DNA of 33,170 bases from Rhodocyclales bacterium. Its GTDB lineage: Bacteria > Pseudomonadota > Gammaproteobacteria > Burkholderiales > Rhodocyclaceae. Location: the NCBI GenBank assembly GCA_016235805.1, contig JACRIY010000022.1:1-33170 (forward strand). Direction: 5' to 3'. The position numbers and the translations under genes are program-made. The notes under the pieces were generated by a model. The model did not search any database and was not told the DNA's origin. It saw only the letters and a program-made list of their open reading frames with translations. This document shows positions 1,411-10,531 of this stretch, piece by piece (the stretch's first letter is position 1; every line of letters begins with the position of its first letter).

Positions 1411-2082
1411 TCAGGCGGCGCGATTGGCGCGCGGCTTCCTGGCGGGTTTGGCTAATACTTCGGGCAAGGGGGCGCGCAGGCCGCCGATGAGGAAGCTCAT
1501 CAGCCGCGCATACAGCGCCTCGGGGTCGGAATCGTCGATCGGCCCCAGCAGGCGCAGGGCATCGGCACCGGAAATCGCGTAGGACAGCGCGCCCATCATG
1601 AAATGGAAGCGCCAGAGGAATTCCTCCTGCGGTACGTCGGGCAGGGCCTTGAAGAAGGCCGCCTTGAAGCGGGCGATGACTTCGGCGTATTCGTCGGCGA
1701 GGAAGGTGCGGATGAAATCGGTGGGTTCTGTGTAGGTGCGGCCGAGCAGTCGCATGAAGGTCTGGCCGCCGTTCTTGTCGGCCGCCATGCGGATCGCCAC
1801 GCCGAAAAAGGCCTCGACGATCTGCCGTGGCTTCAGCGGTGCGCCCTTCGCTTCAGCTTCGAACGCAGTCAGCGCAGCAATGCGCTGCTCGTTGAGCCAG
1901 GTCAGGCGGCGGCGGAACACCGCCTCGATCAGCGCCTCCTTCGAGCCGAAGTGGTAATTCACCGCCGCCAGGTTGGCCTGGGCCTCGGCGGTGATCATGC
2001 GCAAGGTCGTCGCGTCGAGGCCATGCCGGACAAAAAGCCGCTCGGCGGCATCAAGGATACGGGTGCGGGTGTCGATTTCCAT
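1411..2082 (-). CDS. TetR-family transcriptional regulator, probable regulator of fadE
   Basis: This is a 223-residue TetR-type repressor. The N-terminal helix-turn-helix is clear (TRTRILDAAERLFVRHGLDATTLRMI, then NLAAVNYHFGSKEALIEAVF, about residues 3-55). It is followed by an all-helical ligand domain of the kind seen in PsrA/FadR-like fatty-acid regulators. I chose the ATG at 2082, which has a GAGG about 11 nt upstream. A longer reading from a TTG at 2103 is possible but would run up to the palindrome at 2114-2127. The gene directly precedes fadE (15-bp gap). The family and context suggest repression of beta-oxidation relieved by acyl-CoA, probably with autoregulation; this function is inference. 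The C-terminal tail is Lys/Arg/Ala-rich. Confidence 0.88.
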   Translation of the reverse strand: MEIDTRTRILDAAERLFVRHGLDATTLRMITAEAQANLAAVNYHFGSKEALIEAVFRRRLTWLNEQRIAALTAFEAEAKGAPLKPRQIVEAFFGVAIRMAADKNGGQTFMRLLGRTYTEPTDFIRTFLADEYAEVIARFKAAFFKALPDVPQEEFLWRFHFMMGALSYAISGADALRLLGPIDDSDPEALYARLMSFLIGGLRAPLPEVLAKPARKPRANRAA

Positions 2083-2113
2083 GGGCTGGCGGACCTCGGG
2101 CAAACAAAAGTTT

Positions 2114-2297: not shown

Positions 2298-2945
2298 ATG
2301 AACTCGCAGTCCTTATCCGATCTGATCACTCCGTTCCGCGAATCACTCGAATCGCTCGATCGCATCCGGGCCGAAAGCCTGTTCGCGGAGGCACTTTCAC
2401 GCGTTTCGCCGATCGCGGCCGTCGAGCAGCTCATCGTTCCCGCCCTCGAGCAGATGGGCAATGCCTGGCATGAAGGCAGCGTGGCCCTGTCCCAGGTCTA
2501 CATGGGCGGCCGTTTCTGCGAGGAACTGGTAGAGCGCGTGCTGCCGCCCAGCGACCCGGACCGCAAGCACCAGCCCCGTTCCGCGATCGTGCTGCTCAAC
2601 GACTACCACATGCTGGGCAAGCGCATCGTCTATTCGGTGATGCGCGCCAGCGGCTTCGAACTCTTCGACTACGGCCGCATGGACGTCGACGAACTGGTCG
2701 AACGGGCGCTGGCCGACAGGATCCGCGTGCTGCTGGTTTCGGTGCTGATGCTGCCCTCCGCCCTCAAGGTGGCCGATGTCTGCAGCCAGCTCAAGGCCCG
2801 TGGCTCGGACATCAAGGTTGCGGTTGGCGGCGCTCCCTTCCTCTTCGATGGCGAACTTTGGCGGGAAGTCGGCGCCGATGGCATGGGCCGCAGCGCCGGC
2901 GACGCGGTCACCATCGTCGACGCCTGGATGAGGGAGATGGCATGA
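2298..2945 (+). CDS. B12-binding corrinoid protein (MtbC/MttC-like)
   Basis: This is a 215-residue two-domain corrinoid protein of the type that shuttles methyl groups between methyltransferases. The N-terminal helical cap domain (about residues 15-85, with VPALEQMGNAWHEGSVALSQVYMGG) precedes a Rossmann-like B12-binding domain. That domain has the base-off/His-on motif D102-x-H104-x-x-G107 (DYHMLG), then the SVLML strand and the VGGAPF loop. The start is uncertain. I chose ATG 2298, which has a run of G as ribosome site; in-frame ATGs at 2280 and 2283 would add five or six residues. It overlaps the next gene by 4 nt (ATGA). No MttB-type substrate methyltransferase and no reductive activator (RACo) lie nearby, so a sensory rather than catabolic role is plausible. 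Confidence 0.88.
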   Translation: MNSQSLSDLITPFRESLESLDRIRAESLFAEALSRVSPIAAVEQLIVPALEQMGNAWHEGSVALSQVYMGGRFCEELVERVLPPSDPDRKHQPRSAIVLLNDYHMLGKRIVYSVMRASGFELFDYGRMDVDELVERALADRIRVLLVSVLMLPSALKVADVCSQLKARGSDIKVAVGGAPFLFDGELWREVGADGMGRSAGDAVTIVDAWMREMA

Positions 2946-4000
2946 ACTCCATGGAACGCGTGCTGACCACGCTGGGCCACAAGGAGCCCGACCGCGTGCC
3001 GCTGTTCCTGCTCGCCAACATGCATGGCGCGAAGGAACTCGGCCTGTCGTTGCGCGACTACTACGCCAGCGCCGGGAACGTCATCGATGGCGAAATGCGC
3101 CTGCTCGAAAAATTCGGCAGCGATTGCGCCTATCCCTTCTTCTACGCGTCGCTCGAAATCGAAGCCTGGGGCGGCGACACCATCTTCTCCGCCGACGGCC
3201 CCCCGCTGTGCGGCCCGCCGGTGATCCGCCGCCCGGAGGATATCGACAGCCTGCGTCCGCCGGAAGTCGAATCGTCGCCGGCCCTGCGGCGCGTGCTGGA
3301 CACCATCGCCGGGCTCAAGCAACGCCTGGATGGCCGGGTGCCGATCATCGCGGTTGCCATCTCGCCCTTTTCGCTGCCGGTGATGCAGATGGGCTTCGAC
3401 CGCTATATCGAGCTGATGCACGAGCAGCCGGACCGCTTCCTCAAGCTGATGCAAACCAACGAGGAGTTCACCGTCAATTGGGCCAACGCCCAGCTGGCCG
3501 CCGGCGCCACCGCGATCTGCTACTTCGATCCGGTGTCCTCGACCACCAACATCCCGCGCGATCTCTACCTCGCCACCGGCCAACAAGTGGCGAAACGCGC
3601 GCTGGCCAGGATCAAGGGCCCGACCGCCACCCACATGGCATCCGGCCGCTGCCTGCCGATACTTGGCGACATCGCCGATACCGGCACCGCCGTGGTCGGC
3701 GTCAGCATTCTGGAAGACCTCGCCCGACTCAAGGCGGCCGCCGCCGGACGCGTCACCCTGCTGGGCAATCTTAACGGCATCGAAATGCGGCGCTGGACGC
3801 CGGCCGACGCCGAGCTGGCGGTCAAGCGCGCCATCGCCGCGGCGGGTCCGGGCGGCGGCTTCATCCTCTCCGACAACCACGGCGAGATTCCCTTCCAGGT
3901 CGCCGATGAGACCCTTCTGGCGATCCGCGAAGCGGTCGACCGCTGGGGACGTTATCCGCTCGACTGGGTGCAGGACTGGACCGATCCCGGCCCGACCTGA
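2942..4000 (+). CDS. Uroporphyrinogen decarboxylase-family corrinoid methyltransferase (MtaA/CmuA-like) with altered zinc-site residues
   Basis: This is a 352-residue UroD-fold protein of the corrinoid methyltransferase branch, starting in an ATGA overlap with the corrinoid-protein gene. Family landmarks are an N-terminal MERVLTTLGHKEPDRVPLF, a central ISPFSLPVMQMGFDRYIELMHEQPDRF, and a C-terminal LLGNLNG followed by GGGFILSDNHGEIP. MtaA/MtbA enzymes bind catalytic zinc through H-x-C and a later Cys (in a G-C-G-I-type loop). Here H231 is kept but the H-x-C cysteine is Ala233, and the late Cys position appears to be H313 (SDNHGEIP). The protein may therefore use a different zinc set, or may bind methyl-corrinoid without classical turnover. 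It is not hemE: the true decarboxylase is organised differently and the neighbours are signalling genes. The family call is firm; the substrate is unknown. Confidence 0.85.
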   Translation: MNSMERVLTTLGHKEPDRVPLFLLANMHGAKELGLSLRDYYASAGNVIDGEMRLLEKFGSDCAYPFFYASLEIEAWGGDTIFSADGPPLCGPPVIRRPEDIDSLRPPEVESSPALRRVLDTIAGLKQRLDGRVPIIAVAISPFSLPVMQMGFDRYIELMHEQPDRFLKLMQTNEEFTVNWANAQLAAGATAICYFDPVSSTTNIPRDLYLATGQQVAKRALARIKGPTATHMASGRCLPILGDIADTGTAVVGVSILEDLARLKAAAAGRVTLLGNLNGIEMRRWTPADAELAVKRAIAAAGPGGGFILSDNHGEIPFQVADETLLAIREAVDRWGRYPLDWVQDWTDPGPT

Positions 4001-4008
4001 ACGACATC

Positions 4009-5760
4009 ATGTCCGCCCGGCACTGCATCCTTGCCTGCCACAACTTCCACCGTGAAGTGGATGCCGCCGTAAGCGCCGAAGGCTGGACCGACGTCAGCGC
4101 GGTGGCGTTCCCGGCCCGTTGCGGACGCCCGCCGCTCGCTTGGGATGAACTGCGCACGCTGCTGCCCGACGATTGCACGCAGTTGGCGGTACTCGGTCGC
4201 GCCTGCCTGCAGGGCCTGGGCGACCCGCCCGCCGGCTTCCCGCCGATCAAGCTGATGCCGCAGCAACAATGCTTCAACCTCGTCGCCGATCCCTCACTGG
4301 TGAGCGAAGCCATCGGTGAAGGCGGCTACCTGCTGACGCCGGGCTGGCTCGCGAACTGGCGCGAACGCATCGTCGAGATGGGATTCACCCCGGAAACCGC
4401 GGGCGGCTTTTTCCAGGACTTTGCGCGCAAATTGGTGCTGCTCGACACCGGCATCGATACCGAGGCCAAGACGCAACTGGCCGAACTGGCGCTTGCCGTC
4501 GGCCTGCCCGCAAAGCGCATCGCGGTCGGACTCGACCGCGTTCGCCTGCTGTTGGCGCCGGTGGTCCTGGCCTGGCGACTGGCCGAGGAGCGCAACCAGC
4601 GCGACGACGCCGAACGGCACCACAAGCGCGAACTGGCCGACCGGGTGTCGGCCATGGATCTTCTGGCGCAACTGGCCAAGGCGCGCGAGGAAGCCGAAGC
4701 CATCGCCGCCATCGAGGACGTGTTCCGCATGCTCTTCGCGCCCGATACCTGGCATTACCTGAGGGTCGAGCAGGAGCAGCCGTTGGCCGATCCGCGCGTC
4801 CCGGACGAGGTGTTCGCCGCGCTCGACGAACTGCGCTCACCCTGGGCCTGGACCCCTTCCGGCAAGGGCTTCATGCTGCGCATCGCCCACGGCGAGCACA
4901 GGCTGGGCCTCATCGCGGTCGACGGCCTCGCCTTTCCCGAGTACCGCGAACGCTACCTCAACCTGGCGCTGGCGATCAGCGGCGTCTGCGCGCTGGCCAT
5001 CGACAATGCGCGCACCCACAAGCAACTGGTGGAGGCGGAACGCATGGCCTCGCTCGCCGTCCTCGTCGCCGGCGTGGCCCATGAAATCAATACGCCGGTC
5101 GGTGTCGGCCTGGCTGCCGCATCGATACTGGAAAAACAGTCCGCCGGGCTCGCCCTGCGCTTCGCCGAGCGCCACATGACCCAATCCGACCTCACCTCCT
5201 ACCTCGGTGCGGCGCAGGAAGAGGCCAGCCTGATCCGCGCGAACCTGGAACGCATCGGAGCGCTGATCGACGCCTTTCGCCAGGTCGCAGTGCAGGGCAA
5301 GCTGCCGGAAAAGCGCCGCTGCCGGCTTGGCGCGATGTTCAGGGACATCCTTGCCACCCAGGGCGAACAACTGGCCGCCCGCAACATCGAGGTCGCGCTC
5401 GATTGCGATGAGGCCCTCGAAATCGAAAGCGTGGCCGCCGACTGGACCAGCATCCTGTCCAACCTGGTCGCCAATTCGCTGCAACACGGATTCAGGAACC
5501 GCGACCGCGGGCACATCGCAATCGACGTCACCGCCAACGCCACTCGGTTGCGGATCGACTATGCGGATGACGGATGCGGCATGACGGCAACGGCGCGCGC
5601 GCGCATCTTCGATCCTTTCTTTACCACCGACATGCAGAATGGCATGGGGCTTGGCATGCATCTGGTATACAACCTGGTCACCCATCGTTTCGGCGGCAGC
5701 ATCACCTGCACCAGCGAGCCGGACAAGGGCGCCCAATTTCACATCGAGGTGCCTCTATGA
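4009..5760 (+). CDS. Sensor histidine kinase with Cys-rich DUF1638-like N-terminal domain and GAF-like domain
   Basis: This is a 583-residue soluble kinase; no signal peptide or membrane segment is visible. Residues 1-190 resemble DUF1638, a family met beside corrinoid methyltransferases ([37 protein letters not shown]). This part has six cysteines in its first 88 residues (6, 10, 38, 56, 66, 88). A coiled linker (about 195-235) leads to a GAF-like region (about 235-345, ending [19 protein letters not shown]). Then come a HPK4-type H-box (GVAHEINTP, His358), an N-box ([11 protein letters not shown], about 485), G1 (DDGCGM) and G2 (GMGLGMHL). It starts 8 nt after the methyltransferase gene and overlaps the next gene by 4 nt. 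Context suggests it reads the state of the corrinoid/methyltransferase pair; that is inference. Confidence 0.85.
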
Positions 5761-8579
5761 GCGCGCCAGCAGAATCCGACGAATTCACCACCTTGTTCGC
5801 CCCCGAACCCGACGACGCCGAAGCGCGCGCATCCGGGCACTGGAAAGTGCTGGTGGTCGACGACGAGCCCGACATCCATGCCGTGCTGCGCCTGGCCATG
5901 CAGGACATGATGGTCGAGGGCATACCCTTGCAGCTGATCGATGCGCATTCGGCCGAGGAAGCCAAGGCGATCCTTGCCCGCGAGCCGGACATCGCCCTGA
6001 TCCTGCTCGACGTCGTCATGGAAACCGAAGATGCCGGCCTCGAACTGGTGCGCCACGTGCGCCAGGAGCTGTGCAACCGCATGGTGCGCATCGTGCTGGT
6101 CACCGGGCAGCCGGGCTACGCCCCGCAACGGGAAGTCGTGGCCAACTACGAGATCGACGGCTACCGCCTCAAGTCCGAACTGACGGCGGACCGCATCTTC
6201 GTTTCCGTCTATGCCGGGGTGCGCGCCTACCAGACGCTGGTCGAGCAGACCCTGCAGCGGATCCAGCTCGACGAAGCCGAAGACGGCCTGCGCCGGGAGC
6301 AGATGCTGAAGGCCGCCATCGTCGAGCACTCCGATGACGGCATCATCGGCCGGACGCTGGACGGGGTGATCACCAGCTGGAACCGGGCGGCCGAGAAGAT
6401 CCTCGGCTACACCGCCGGCGAAGTGCTCGGCAAGTCGATTTCCATCCTGGTGCCGGCCGACCGCGTCGACGAAGAGCGGAGAATGATCGCCTCGATATTG
6501 GCCGGCAGCGGGATCAATCACCAGGAAACCGAACGCCTGGCGCGCGACGGCAGGCGCATCCCGGTTTCGCTCACCGTGTCGCCCATCCTCGATTCCGGCG
6601 GCAGGATGATCGGCGCCTCGCAGATCGTGCGCGACATCACGGAACGCAAGAAGGCCGAAGCCGAACTCGAAAAGTACCGGCACGACCTCGAACACCTGGT
6701 CGAGGAACGCACCAGCGAACTCTCTCTGGCGAAGGACGCCGCCGAAGCTGCCAACCACGCCAAGACGCAGTTCCTGGCCAACATGAGCCACGAAATCCGG
6801 ACACCGATGAATGCCGTGCTCGGGCTCACCCACCTGCTGCATTCCGGCGCGACGCCCAAGCAGAAGGAAAGGCTGGACAAGATCAGCCAGGCCGGCCAGC
6901 ACCTGCTGGCGATCATCAACGACATCCTCGACCTGTCGAAGATCGAGGCCGGCAAGCTGCACCTCGACGACCAGAATTTTTCCCTGGTCGCGGTGATGGA
7001 CCATGTCCATTCGATGATTTCGGCGACGGCGCAAGCCAAGGGGCTGCGCATCCGCTTCGACTACGACGAGGTTCCCCACTGGCTGCGCGGCGACCCCACC
7101 CGCCTGGCGCAGTCCCTGCTCAACTATGCCAGCAACGCGGTGAAGTTCACCGAACGGGGATCCGTGTCGATTCGCGCGCAGCTGCTGGATCAGACCGAAG
7201 ACGACCTGCTGTTGCGCTTCGAGGTCGAGGACACCGGCATCGGCATCGCCGCCGACGAACTGGCGCGCCTGTTCCACGCCTTCGAGCAGGTCGATGCGTC
7301 GAGCTCGCGGCGCTACGGCGGCACCGGCCTCGGACTGGTGATCACCCGGCGCCTGGTGGAAATAATGGGGGGCGAAGTCGGCGCCGACTGCAGCCCCGGC
7401 GTCGGCAGCAAGTTCTGGTTTACCGCGCACTTCCGCCCGGGTCATGGCCTGGCACCCGCCGAGACGGTCGCGGGATCCGAGAGCGCCGAGGATGCGCTGC
7501 GGCTGCACCACATGGGCGCGCGGCTGCTGCTGGTGGAGGACAATCCGATCAATCGCGAAGTGGCGCTGGAACTCCTGCACGGCGTTCAGTTCGCGGTCGA
7601 TCTGGCGGCCAACGGCCAGGAAGCGGTCGAGCTTGCGCGTGCCCGGCACTATGACCTCGTGCTGATGGACATCCAGATGCCGGTGATGAACGGCCTCGAT
7701 GCCACGCGCGCCATCCGCGGCATTCCGGAACACGCCGGGACGCCGATCCTGGCGATGACCGCAAACGCCTTCGACGAGGATCGCGCTGCCTGCCAGGCCG
7801 CAGGCATGAACGATTTCATCGTCAAGCCGGTGGAGCCCGACGCGCTTTACGCCAGCCTGCTGCGGTGGCTGCTGGTGCCCGCCGCAAAGGGAGCCGCGCC
7901 GGAGGCAAGGCAGCCCGCTGCCGCCCCTGTCGTGGCCCCGCCCTCGCCGGCCGATACGACGCTGACCGCGGCACTGGAACACCTGGCCGGGTTGCCGGGC
8001 CTGAATGTGGAGCAGGGCCTTTCCATGGTGCGCGGCAACGGTGCCAAGTACCTGGACCTGCTGCGCCGCTTCGCCGAGAGCCATGCGGACGACATGGCCG
8101 CGTTGCAGACCAGCCTCGCCGCCGGCGATCGGCCCACCGCCCTGCGACTGGCGCACACGCTGAAGGGCGCGGCGGCCACGCTGGGCGCCAACCGCCTGGC
8201 CAGGATGGCGCGCGACCTGGAGGAGATCCTCCATGTGGAAACGGACTCGGAGAGCGTCGAATCGCGGCTGTTGCAGCAGATGACCGCGATCCGGCTGGAG
8301 TTTCCCCCGCTCGCGGCCGCCTTGCCGCCCGTCGCACCCGTCGCCACGGACGCCGGCGGCGCGCGCGACCGGGCCACGCTGCAATCCCTGCTGGGCACGC
8401 TGGAAGCGCTGCTGGAGCAGGGTGACACGGCCTCGATCGAACTGCTCGACACCCACGGCGACGCGCTGAAGCTTGCCCTTGCCGGCGACTTCGAAAAGCT
8501 CGCGGGCGACATCCGGCGCTTCGCCTTCGACGACGCCCTCAATTCGCTGCGAGCCTTGCGGCAAAAGCTCGGGGTCTAG
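5757..8579 (+). CDS. Hybrid histidine kinase/response regulator: REC-PAS-HisKA-HATPase-REC-Hpt
   Basis: This is a 940-residue cytosolic phosphorelay protein. The start is the ATG in the ATGA overlap with the upstream kinase. Domains: REC1 (about 28-150, phospho-acceptor Asp85 in LILLDVVME); PAS (about 183-300, [22 protein letters not shown]); a coiled linker; HisKA ([14 protein letters not shown], His345); HATPase_c (N-box [11 protein letters not shown]1 DTGIGI, G2 YGGTGLGL, about 440-560); REC2 (about 588-710, Asp638 in [13 protein letters not shown]); and an Ala/Pro-rich linker to Hpt (about 740-850, [13 protein letters not shown], His800). The final ~90 residues are less clear. REC1 is the natural target of the preceding kinase, which would feed this protein's own relay ending at Hpt. 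The next acceptor is not encoded nearby, so it must be elsewhere in the genome. Confidence 0.92.
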
Positions 8580-8640: not shown

Positions 8641-8914
8641 CTAGCAGCCTGTCGGACTTTAGGCGCGGGATGCGTTGCCGCCCAACCGGGATGGATGCAA
8701 GGCGCGCCGCGCAGGCAATGGCTGTTCCATTGCCAAGCGGTGCAACGCCGCAGACGCCCGGTTGGGCGACAACCCTTCGGGACGGCATCAGTTTTGGCGC
8801 ATCGCGGCGTTGCGCCGCCTTGCTTGGGGGGCGCCAAAGCGTCGTCGGCGCGCCTTGCGCTGCATCCAAAACAGATACCGTCGCACCCACGCCTAAAGTC
8901 CGACAGGCTGCTAG
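8641..8914. mobile_element. MITE-like near-palindromic element with 25-bp perfect terminal inverted repeats
   Basis: The 25 bp at 8641-8665 (beginning CTAGCAGCCTGTCGGACTT) are the exact reverse complement of 8890-8914. Inside, further segments also mirror each other (GGATGCAAGGCGCGCCG near 8693 against CGGCGCGCCTTGC near 8850, and GGTGCAACGCCGC near 8741 against GCGGCGTTGCGCC near 8811). The whole 274 bp can therefore fold into one long branched hairpin. No transposase fits inside. The outer CTAG at both ends would suit a 4-bp YTAR-type target duplication as made by IS5-group elements; that assignment is inference. It sits between the kinase operon and the antiporter gene. Confidence 0.75.
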
Positions 8915-8971
8915 GATTCGGCTCCCTGCCGAAACGAACCCGCGTCCCCGGCCGAACCGACGATCCACCCG

Positions 8972-10531
8972 ATGCTGCTGCTCGAACTCGTACTGCTGCT
9001 GATGATCTGCGCCGTCGCCCTGGGCTGGCTGGCGCGCCACTTCAAGTTTCCCTACCCGATCGCGCTGGTGGTCGGCGGCGCCCTGCTGGGCCTGATTCCC
9101 AGGCTGCCGCAGTTCCCCTTCGACCCGCAGCTGATCCTCGTCGTGGTGCTGCCGCCCATCCTCTACCAGGCCGCGCTGCTGACATCGTGGAGCGACTTCA
9201 AGACCCACATCCGCTCGATCAGCCTGCTGGCGATAGGGCTGGTGATCGCCACCACGCTGGCGGTCGGCCTCACGCTCAAACTGATGGTGCCCTCGGTACC
9301 GTGGGCCGCCGCCTTCGTGCTGGGCGCCATCGTCTCGCCGCCGGACGCCGTGGCCGCCACCACCATCCTCTCGCGGCTCAACATCCCGCGCCACCTGGTG
9401 ACCATCCTCGAAGGCGAAAGCCTGGTGAACGACGCTTCGGGCCTGGTCATCTACAAGCTGGCCATCGCCGCCGTGCTGACCGGCGCCTTCCCTTTCAGCG
9501 ACGCCACGCTGCAGTTCGCCCTGGTATCGGTCGGCGGCGTGCTGATCGGCATCGTGCTGGGCTTTGTCTTCATCGAAATCCACAAGCGCCTGGGCGATCC
9601 CTTCATCGAGGTCATCACCGCGCTGGCGATCCCCTACGTCGCCTACATCGCCGCCGAATCGCTGCACGTTTCCGGCGTGCTGGGCGTGGTCGCCGCCGGC
9701 CTGGTGCGCGGCCGCTACGCGCCCGAGATCGTCTCCGCCGAAATGCGCATCATGGCGCGCTCGGTGTGGAACGTGCTGGTGTTCATGCTCAACAGCCTGG
9801 TCTTCATCCTGATCGGCATCCAGATGTCCGAGGTGATGGACACCCTGGGCCGCTACTCCCTGGCGCAGCTGGTGCTGATGGGTTCGGCGATCACCGTAGT
9901 CGCCGTCGTGGTGCGCTTCGCCTGGGTCTACCCGGCCGCCTACCTGCCGCGCTGGCTGCCCGGACTGGCGAGCAAGCAGGCGCCGCCCCTGCGCCGGCGC
10001 GAGCTGGGCATCATCAGCTGGTGCGGCATGCGCGGCATCGTCTCGCTCGCCGCCGCGCTGGCGCTGCCGGCCACGCTGCCCGACGGCCAGCCTTTTCCGG
10101 CGCGCGACCTGATCATCTTCCTCACCTTCTTCCTCATCGCCGCCACGCTGGTAGGGCAGGGGCTCACGCTCTCGCCGCTGATCCGCAAGCTGAAGGTCGG
10201 TTCCGACTGGAGCATGGCCGAAGAGCAGCGCCTGGTGCGCTCGGCGATGAGCACCGCGGCGATCAACGCTGTCGACGCCCACCTGGCGCAGGCCAAGGCG
10301 CCGCCGGAATGGGCCGACCTGCTGCGCGCCGAAATCGCCGAACGCGTCGCGCTGGCCGCGCCCGAAGGCCTCGAGCAAACCGAGCGCGACAGGCTGCTGG
10401 CCGCGCTGCGCCGCATCGCCATCGACGCCGAGCGCCGCGAACTGATCCGCCTCTGGCGCGAGAACGCGATCGGCGACGAAGTCATGCGCCACCAGGAGGA
10501 ACTGCTGGATTACCAGGAAGCGCAGCTGTAA
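8972..10531 (+). CDS. CPA1-family Na+/H+ (monovalent cation/proton) antiporter
   Basis: This is a 519-residue inner-membrane exchanger with about 12 hydrophobic segments up to about residue 405, then a charged, helical cytosolic tail of about 110 residues (AEEQRLVRSAMSTAAINAVDAHLAQ...). Diagnostic CPA1/NhaP-type stretches are VVLPPILYQAALLTSW, GAIVSPPDAVAATTIL (the Asp-containing ion-binding helix) and ILEGESLVNDASGLVIYK. The role would be sodium or pH homeostasis; ion preference cannot be judged from sequence. The ATG at 8972 has no obvious Shine-Dalgarno, and the MITE ends only 57 bp upstream, so the element may have replaced or now contributes to the promoter. The gene stands alone; the next gene is convergent and only 14 bp away. 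Confidence 0.92.
   Translation: MLLLELVLLLMICAVALGWLARHFKFPYPIALVVGGALLGLIPRLPQFPFDPQLILVVVLPPILYQAALLTSWSDFKTHIRSISLLAIGLVIATTLAVGLTLKLMVPSVPWAAAFVLGAIVSPPDAVAATTILSRLNIPRHLVTILEGESLVNDASGLVIYKLAIAAVLTGAFPFSDATLQFALVSVGGVLIGIVLGFVFIEIHKRLGDPFIEVITALAIPYVAYIAAESLHVSGVLGVVAAGLVRGRYAPEIVSAEMRIMARSVWNVLVFMLNSLVFILIGIQMSEVMDTLGRYSLAQLVLMGSAITVVAVVVRFAWVYPAAYLPRWLPGLASKQAPPLRRRELGIISWCGMRGIVSLAAALALPATLPDGQPFPARDLIIFLTFFLIAATLVGQGLTLSPLIRKLKVGSDWSMAEEQRLVRSAMSTAAINAVDAHLAQAKAPPEWADLLRAEIAERVALAAPEGLEQTERDRLLAALRRIAIDAERRELIRLWRENAIGDEVMRHQEELLDYQEAQL

Follow-up and report, generated by a model that had tools for sequence, protein, structure and literature searches.

A modular corrinoid-based unit with interchangeable outputs, probably the input of a bacterial sensor

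The described systems closest to the locus reported here are the methyltransferases of the MtaA/MtbA, CmuA, and CdmB kind. The locus is a set of four adjacent genes at positions 2298-8579 of a 33,170-nucleotide stretch of DNA from a Rhodocyclales bacterium (assembly GCA_016235805.1, contig JACRIY010000022.1, positions 1 to 33,170; the whole stretch analysed is called the window), and it encodes a corrinoid protein, a UroD-like protein, a sensor kinase that begins with a DUF1638 domain, and a hybrid kinase. It resembles those enzymes in the fold of its UroD-like protein (TM-scores of 0.85/0.89 to MtaA, 4ay7), in an MtbC/MtaC-like corrinoid partner, and in the adjacency of the genes, whereas it differs in having neither the MtaA zinc ligands nor a methyl acceptor enzyme, in occurring often in genomes without the activator RACo, and in being linked to signalling. 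Type 1 mlp gene clusters, as far as the accessible text of PMC10418091 goes, are likewise widespread and combine an MtaA-like UroD protein with a corrinoid protein, but they hold several Mlp genes plus Ram/RACE and belong to obligate anaerobes, and the two occurrences of the word kinase in that main text, both within a figure legend, refer to metabolic enzymes. A third relative is the split methionine synthase/DUF1638/RamA-like set of Phaeobacter inhibens, in which DUF1638 is encoded beside an MtbC-like corrinoid protein and B12-dependent methionine synthesis requires both DUF1638 and a RamA-like protein; that set is metabolic, its DUF1638 protein is free, and the accessible text of PMC5764234 describes no kinase and offers no specific function for DUF1638.

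On the sensory side, CarH, AerR, and the photocobilins, in the portions of their descriptions available, use a B12-binding domain as a sensory element, sometimes with a diguanylate cyclase. The present module differs from them in that it misses the photoreceptor signature, has an enzyme-like UroD partner, and carries the corrinoid on a separate polypeptide. In the two-component systems H-NOX/kinase and NosP/NahK, a separate cofactor protein serves as input. There, as here, the cofactor protein is encoded beside rather than within the kinase, but the module reported here uses a cobamide as cofactor and has a second subunit that resembles an enzyme. We found no description of a corrinoid-UroD-kinase module in the open-licence literature among the matches listed, judged by titles and abstract openings. 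We conclude that the set is a corrinoid-based sensory unit, modular and with interchangeable outputs, in which the corrinoid/UroD pair is probably the sensory input of a so far undescribed bacterial sensor; it is a variant of cofactor-based two-component sensing, and should the signal be methyl transfer it would count as a new class.

Gene order and interchangeable outputs

Pfam and NCBIfam profiles together with a motif check confirmed the four genes, all with intact motifs, and the features of the set are as follows.

2298-2945, plus strand: corrinoid (B12-binding) protein, MtbC/MtaC-like, 215 aa (Pfam, motifs, profile match to 7xcn)
2942-4000, plus strand: UroD-superfamily MtaA-like protein without the MtaA zinc-thiol site, 352 aa (URO-D profile, AlphaFold2 model)
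4009-5760, plus strand: sensor kinase, DUF1638 - divergent GAF - HisKA - HATPase, with H358, 583 aa (Pfam, model, motifs)
4009-4590, plus strand: DUF1638 domain with C10, C38, C66, C88, and E16 (conservation, predicted secondary structure)
4624-5043, plus strand: divergent GAF domain, no Pfam match (fold of the predicted model)
5757-8579, plus strand: REC-PAS-HisKA-HATPase-REC-Hpt hybrid kinase with D85, H345, D638, and H800, 940 aa (Pfam, motifs)

The initial annotation had described four genes joined by an ATGA overlap, an 8-nt gap, and another ATGA overlap, and these junctions were confirmed, at 2942-2945, 4001-4008, and 5757-5760, respectively.

It had also proposed looking for the same gene order in other genomes. 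A search for the DUF1638 kinase in 369 genomes of the class gave a match in six, the window's own included, and six neighbourhoods from the other five genomes all had corrinoid and UroD genes directly upstream of that kinase. The UroD alignment built from these was used to scan 84,980 species, each represented by a single genome, which matched 452 stretches, 395 of them encoding a relative; the best 80 of these 395 confirmed relatives were analysed, a sample that leans to close relatives. Gene order was counted with purpose-built profiles over 87 sources (the window, L009-L014, and L015-L094) that hold 89 UroD copies. This count revealed the corrinoid gene directly upstream of 88 of the 89 copies and fused to UroD in the remaining one (L049, included in the 89, which may belong to the sister type B described below), and an open reading frame (ORF) with DUF1638 and/or GAF starting no more than 700 nt past the UroD stop for 84 of them. 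For 58 of the 89 copies, that ORF includes a kinase or GGDEF domain as well. Of the five exceptions, three (L048, L073, and L082) lie at or near a contig edge, one (L012) stands first in a tandem pair, and the fifth is L043. By record titles, the gene order is found in several phyla. As a control, none of 13 low-scoring UroD-profile loci, presumably HemE, had B12, DUF1638, GAF, HATPase, REC, or RACo matches in flanks of up to about 1.5 kb.

A further draw of 398 genomes of the phylum (own included) showed a clear gap in UroD scores and gave 10 further genomes at E < 1e-120. All ten of these loci had a corrinoid match upstream and nine had DUF1638 downstream, with GAF in view in eight, while the tenth, L105, ends close to a contig edge; at least two of the ten (L098-L107) are not independent of L015-L094, as L102 seems to duplicate L065 and L105 to duplicate L082. 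Across genomes, then, a corrinoid/UroD pair followed by DUF1638 and/or GAF recurs (84/89 in the first count and 9/10 in the further draw), and the opposite pattern, in which the pair would usually stand without kinases or with MttB-type enzymes and RACo, is not what these loci, hereafter type A, display. Association, breadth, and modularity are firm for the relatives sampled.

Outputs could be read for 71 modules and comprised histidine kinases (37), histidine kinases with a receiver (16), a small Cys-rich domain (13), and GGDEF (5, assigned by a short motif rather than a profile), with 18 of the 89 copies, many at contig ends, given no label. Parsimony on the UroD tree placed 17 output changes, a figure from a quickly built tree in which 35 of 96 inner branches are weak and well-supported branches alone force fewer changes (1 to 4 for single labels). 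In 12 of the 13 modules with the Cys-rich output, DUF1638 is missing and the GAF domain is retained. The small protein that replaces the kinase past UroD in this form consists of GAF followed by a conserved C..CK.IRD-type Cys-rich domain (L050, L062, L074, L079, L081, L083, L084, L086, L088, L089, L090, and L093), and the one example searched, from L093, matched no Pfam or NCBIfam family. In L028 (718-4458) two DUF1638 ORFs follow UroD head to tail, and a hybrid kinase is fused to the second of them. Zoogloea ramigera NBRC 15342 has the module (L037) with a DUF1638-GAF-HATPase protein. What was observed directly, in this sense, is the gene content, the integrity of the motifs, the conservation of the linkage, and the swapping of outputs.

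The window's own output is a phosphorelay in composition, with the phosphoacceptor His, ATP-binding motifs, receiver Asp, and Hpt His all present, and the hybrid kinase keeps D85, H345, D638, and Hpt H800 intact. Among 38 receiver-less kinases, a receiver-first gene lies directly downstream in 25; the others have a receiver-bearing gene upstream (7), a contig edge (2), or neither on that strand (4). From these sequence patterns the hybrid kinase is likely the phosphoacceptor of the upstream DUF1638 kinase. The initial annotation had the corrinoid/UroD pair wired into a two-kinase phosphorelay that runs from the kinase to REC1: the link to signalling held in both counts above, its restriction to two kinases did not, given the GGDEF and Cys-rich fusions, and the step to REC1 has the gene order on its side (25/38), with phosphotransfer itself a prediction from sequence. 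Just upstream of the type A module of L010, an NMT1-like binding protein (8678-9712, Pfam) lies between two kinases.

The proteins and their conserved residues

The corrinoid protein matched B12-binding_2 and B12-binding, both above the Pfam cut-off, and has the cap and B12-binding domain of a methyltransferase corrinoid protein, with DxHxxG (D102-Y-H104-M-L-G107), SxL (S148-x-L150), and GG (G177-G178); its closest solved structure by profile is the trimethylamine corrinoid protein 7xcn. We aligned the 88 of 95 matching ORFs that scored above 150 bits, and because the B12 motif is intact in 87 or 88 of these 88 copies, the protein likely binds a cobamide. The corrinoid gene is split into two ORFs in L048 and in L082/L105 (frameshift or assembly error).

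Its partner is a member of the UroD superfamily (URO-D, E 2.9e-51) whose best NCBIfam match, mtaA_cmuA, was under cut-off, and it missed both MtaA/CmuA family thresholds tried (TIGR01463/NF040654, 91.2 bits against 235.4 and 70.2 against 400). The AlphaFold2 model (pLDDT 93.6) is a UroD barrel of MtaA type that superposes on 4ay7 with an rmsd of 2.3 and the highest TM-score among the matches listed; by E-value 4ay7 ranks fourth, behind three HemE structures with slightly better E-values, TM-scores of about 0.8, and rmsd of about 3. An identity as HemE (uroporphyrinogen decarboxylase) was dropped, as the presumed HemE set scores far lower in the phylum draw, and it is also weakened by a fold that is nearer MtaA by TM-score, though the three HemE structures lead by E-value. 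What is not kept is the zinc-thiol site of MtaA, whose ligands we take to be His-x-Cys...Cys: the MtaA His aligns with H231 and the MtaA Cys falls on Ala/Ser, the third ligand lying outside the HMMER alignment. Conserved instead are H231-x-A233, H313, and E315, with A233, H313, and E315 each present in 88 of 89 copies and the latter two placed after the last barrel strand of the model. The barrel is otherwise kept at an identity of at least 55%, with conserved residues at its mouth. In L107 the UroD gene is split into two ORFs (frameshift or assembly error). CdmB, in the accessible text of PMC13222342, is a UroD-superfamily MT-I enzyme that does not need zinc, and since such zinc-free enzymes exist, loss of the zinc site is an argument against a methyltransferase acting on thiols and not against methyl transfer as such.

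The Cys-rich, DUF1638-like N-terminus that had been noticed on the sensor kinase was borne out by PF07796 (31.3 bits against a gathering cut-off of 27). HATPase_c also matched, and HisKA was under its cut-off (21.9 against 26.9), yet a clear H-box with H358 is present. Between DUF1638 and the kinase core, residues ~206-345 form a second input domain that the initial annotation had missed; it matched no Pfam family at E 0.01, but in a model of DUF1638 and the following part (AlphaFold2, mean pLDDT 93.5) it has a GAF fold and matches GAF structures including those of KdpD and NLH1. The fold search with this model returned mostly GAF and phytochrome-type matches and no clear relative of the DUF1638 half, for which a sequence search of known structures also gave no solved relative.

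Conservation within DUF1638 was examined in the 67 of 71 type A domains longer than 120 residues and in free DUF1638 proteins of the phylum, taken from 30 loci of 46 listed matches, ten of these 30 being type B. Cys10 and Cys66 are each kept in 65 of the 67 type A domains and Cys88 and Glu16 in all 67; each of the four is present in 10 of 10 type B domains; and the 20 remaining free proteins, which share these residues with the window's domain, have Cys10, Cys66, and Cys88 in 20/20 and Glu16 in 19/20. Of the 67 type A domains, 62 have Cys38; elsewhere this position falls in a His-bearing stretch whose exact register differs between two alignments. The conserved residues lie at or just past the C-terminal ends of successive beta strands in the model, and a metal or cluster site in DUF1638 is a reasonable inference from alignment and model together. 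A corrinoid gene was found in the fetched flank of 14 of the 20 free DUF1638 genes.

The module is flanked by a TetR-type regulator gene (window 1411-2103, minus strand) and a sodium/proton exchanger gene (8972-10531, plus strand), neither with an evident link to it. Between the hybrid kinase and the next gene lies a 274-bp element (8641-8914) with 29-nt terminal inverted repeats (97% complementary), whose terminal sequence has one further copy, on contig C79, and which looks like a small repeat element.

The activator RACo, sister type B, and what the module may sense

That an MttB-type enzyme and a corrinoid activator were lacking, as had been claimed at the outset, agrees with searches of the window's genome (80% complete), in which neither RACo nor MttB (PF06253: 0) was matched. 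The MttB search covered that genome, while the RACo search covered 47 type A genomes (from 35 of the 80 scanned loci plus 12 others) and found no match in 26 and one or more in 21. Of 12 type A genomes of known high completeness, nine have no RACo and in the other three it sits in a type B operon. Beside the module itself, in the fetched flanks, RACo was matched in one of 87 sources, L049, where it precedes the fused corrinoid-UroD copy. Downstream of RACo and the fused ORF, that locus holds a further corrinoid-UroD-DUF1638 set, separate from them.

Sister type B was found in the 398-genome draw as ten loci of intermediate score (E 1e-40 to 1e-54), and it forms one side of a branch of the UroD tree with 100% SH-aLRT support. 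All ten share the order RACo, corrinoid, UroD, free DUF1638, and PAS and/or histidine-kinase proteins, with corrinoid and UroD a single ORF in L134; RACo was assigned by a purpose-built profile, confirmed by Pfam for L127 and by whole-genome search in three genomes. That type B has its own RACo makes corrinoid turnover plausible for a signalling operon. Four of the ten loci (L127-L130) continue past the DUF1638 gene with a PAS-type gene, then a periplasmic binding protein that is NMT1/SsuA-like by eye, and then hybrid kinases. The binding protein of L127, examined with Pfam and NCBIfam, matched SsuA_fam under cut-off; such a protein may point to a ligand.

The reading that we prefer, at about even confidence, is a dedicated sensory module with a methyl donor as input. 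In the chemistry, contacts, direction of phosphotransfer, and stimulus that we infer for it, the corrinoid protein, to judge by its intact motifs, would carry the cobamide, and the UroD-like partner would present a bound small ligand, a methyl donor most likely, to the cobalt as UroD-superfamily MT-I enzymes do. As the four genes include no second methyltransferase that would accept the methyl group, the methyl-corrinoid, or the resulting cobalt state, would persist and so be the signal. The DUF1638-GAF part would dock on the pair and read this cobalt or methyl state, a role suggested by the strict linkage and by the known genetic tie of DUF1638 to corrinoid reactivation. The DUF1638 kinase would then autophosphorylate on H358 and phosphorylate the hybrid kinase at REC1 (D85), from where the phosphate would travel over the hybrid kinase's own H/D/Hpt residues to an unlinked regulator. 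Relatives have this front end fused to GGDEF or other outputs, through which it would act. The stronger proposal, that methyl transfer to the protein-bound cobamide is itself the signal and so defines a new sensor class (an acceptor-less pair, a metal- or thiol-bearing DUF1638-GAF reader, kinase or cyclic-di-GMP outputs, several phyla), is put forward tentatively, at somewhat less than even confidence.

Several observations weigh against a methyl donor as input. The main difficulty is the missing RACo in 26 of the 47 type A genomes, which favours redox sensing over methylation: without RACo, Co(I), which methyl transfer needs, would not be remade by the usual route and another reductant would be required. 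Furthermore, the conserved residues of the UroD-like site match no zinc site familiar to the analyst, and L043 is a true absence, a pair with no adjacent DUF1638/GAF ORF. Nor was a methylated substrate or methyl pathway identified recurring beside the module: the recurrent-neighbour search, a weak test because it compared neighbours without Pfam, gave no identifiable metabolic partner, methyl acceptor, or MttB-type enzyme, and its large clusters consisted mostly of antisense ORFs of the conserved genes. One of its clusters, an ABC-transporter-like protein by eye, occurs in 7 sources.

The serious rival is a redox or oxygen sensor, which we regard as unlikely while granting it more room than any other alternative. 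Here the cobalt would toggle between Co(II) and Co(III) (or Co(I)), UroD would be a cap or scaffold, and the DUF1638 cysteines would read or set the cobalt state and switch the kinase. It owes its standing to the frequent lack of RACo, as Co(I) would need another reductant, and it would also account for the loss of the MtaA zinc-thiol ligands and for the three Cys and one Glu common to kinase-fused, type B, and free DUF1638. Many hosts, by record title Zoogloea, Beggiatoa kin, methanotrophs, sulfate reducers, and magnetotactic bacteria, fit as well, as they live at oxic-anoxic boundaries. However, so well conserved a UroD barrel, mouth residues included, would be superfluous in a sensor of redox alone, and type B retains the activator.

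An ordinary corrinoid methyltransferase pathway with its own regulator is improbable. The parts do come from enzyme families, type B has RACo, and 21 of the 47 type A genomes have it somewhere, but the weak neighbour search recognised no recurrent methyl acceptor or MttB-type enzyme next to the module, the window's genome matched neither MttB nor RACo, DUF1638 is fused to the kinase itself, and outputs alternate between kinases and GGDEF. Less probable again is a sensor of cobamide supply, in which the apo or holo state of the corrinoid protein would set kinase activity; it would require no reductive activator and so suits genomes without RACo, but it leaves the UroD partner unexplained. Adenosylcobalamin photoreceptors carry the signature GxxW, EH, GxxH, GxxxP according to the accessible text of PMC11796333. 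A light sensor using adenosylcobalamin, like CarH or the photocobilins, is hardly credible even though the B12 domain lies within a signalling operon, GxxW is present in 83 of 88 corrinoid copies, and photocobilins with a diguanylate cyclase exist (PMC11796333, PMC10979010, in the portions available), since EH is found at the expected place in 0/88 and G three before the cobalt-ligating His in 1/88, and the UroD partner has no evident photoreceptor role; an identity as CarH or photocobilin was dropped on these two motif counts.

If a methyl donor is indeed the input, an organometallic class of sensor would be added to bacterial signalling, enzyme-like genes of the UroD family (395 relatives confirmed in one scan, 80 examined) would gain a regulatory role, and DUF1638 would gain a testable function as a domain that reads or sets the corrinoid state. 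The module also bears on how bacteria regulate the use of methyl compounds, a subject called largely unexplored in the accessible text of a 2026 study (PMC13222342).

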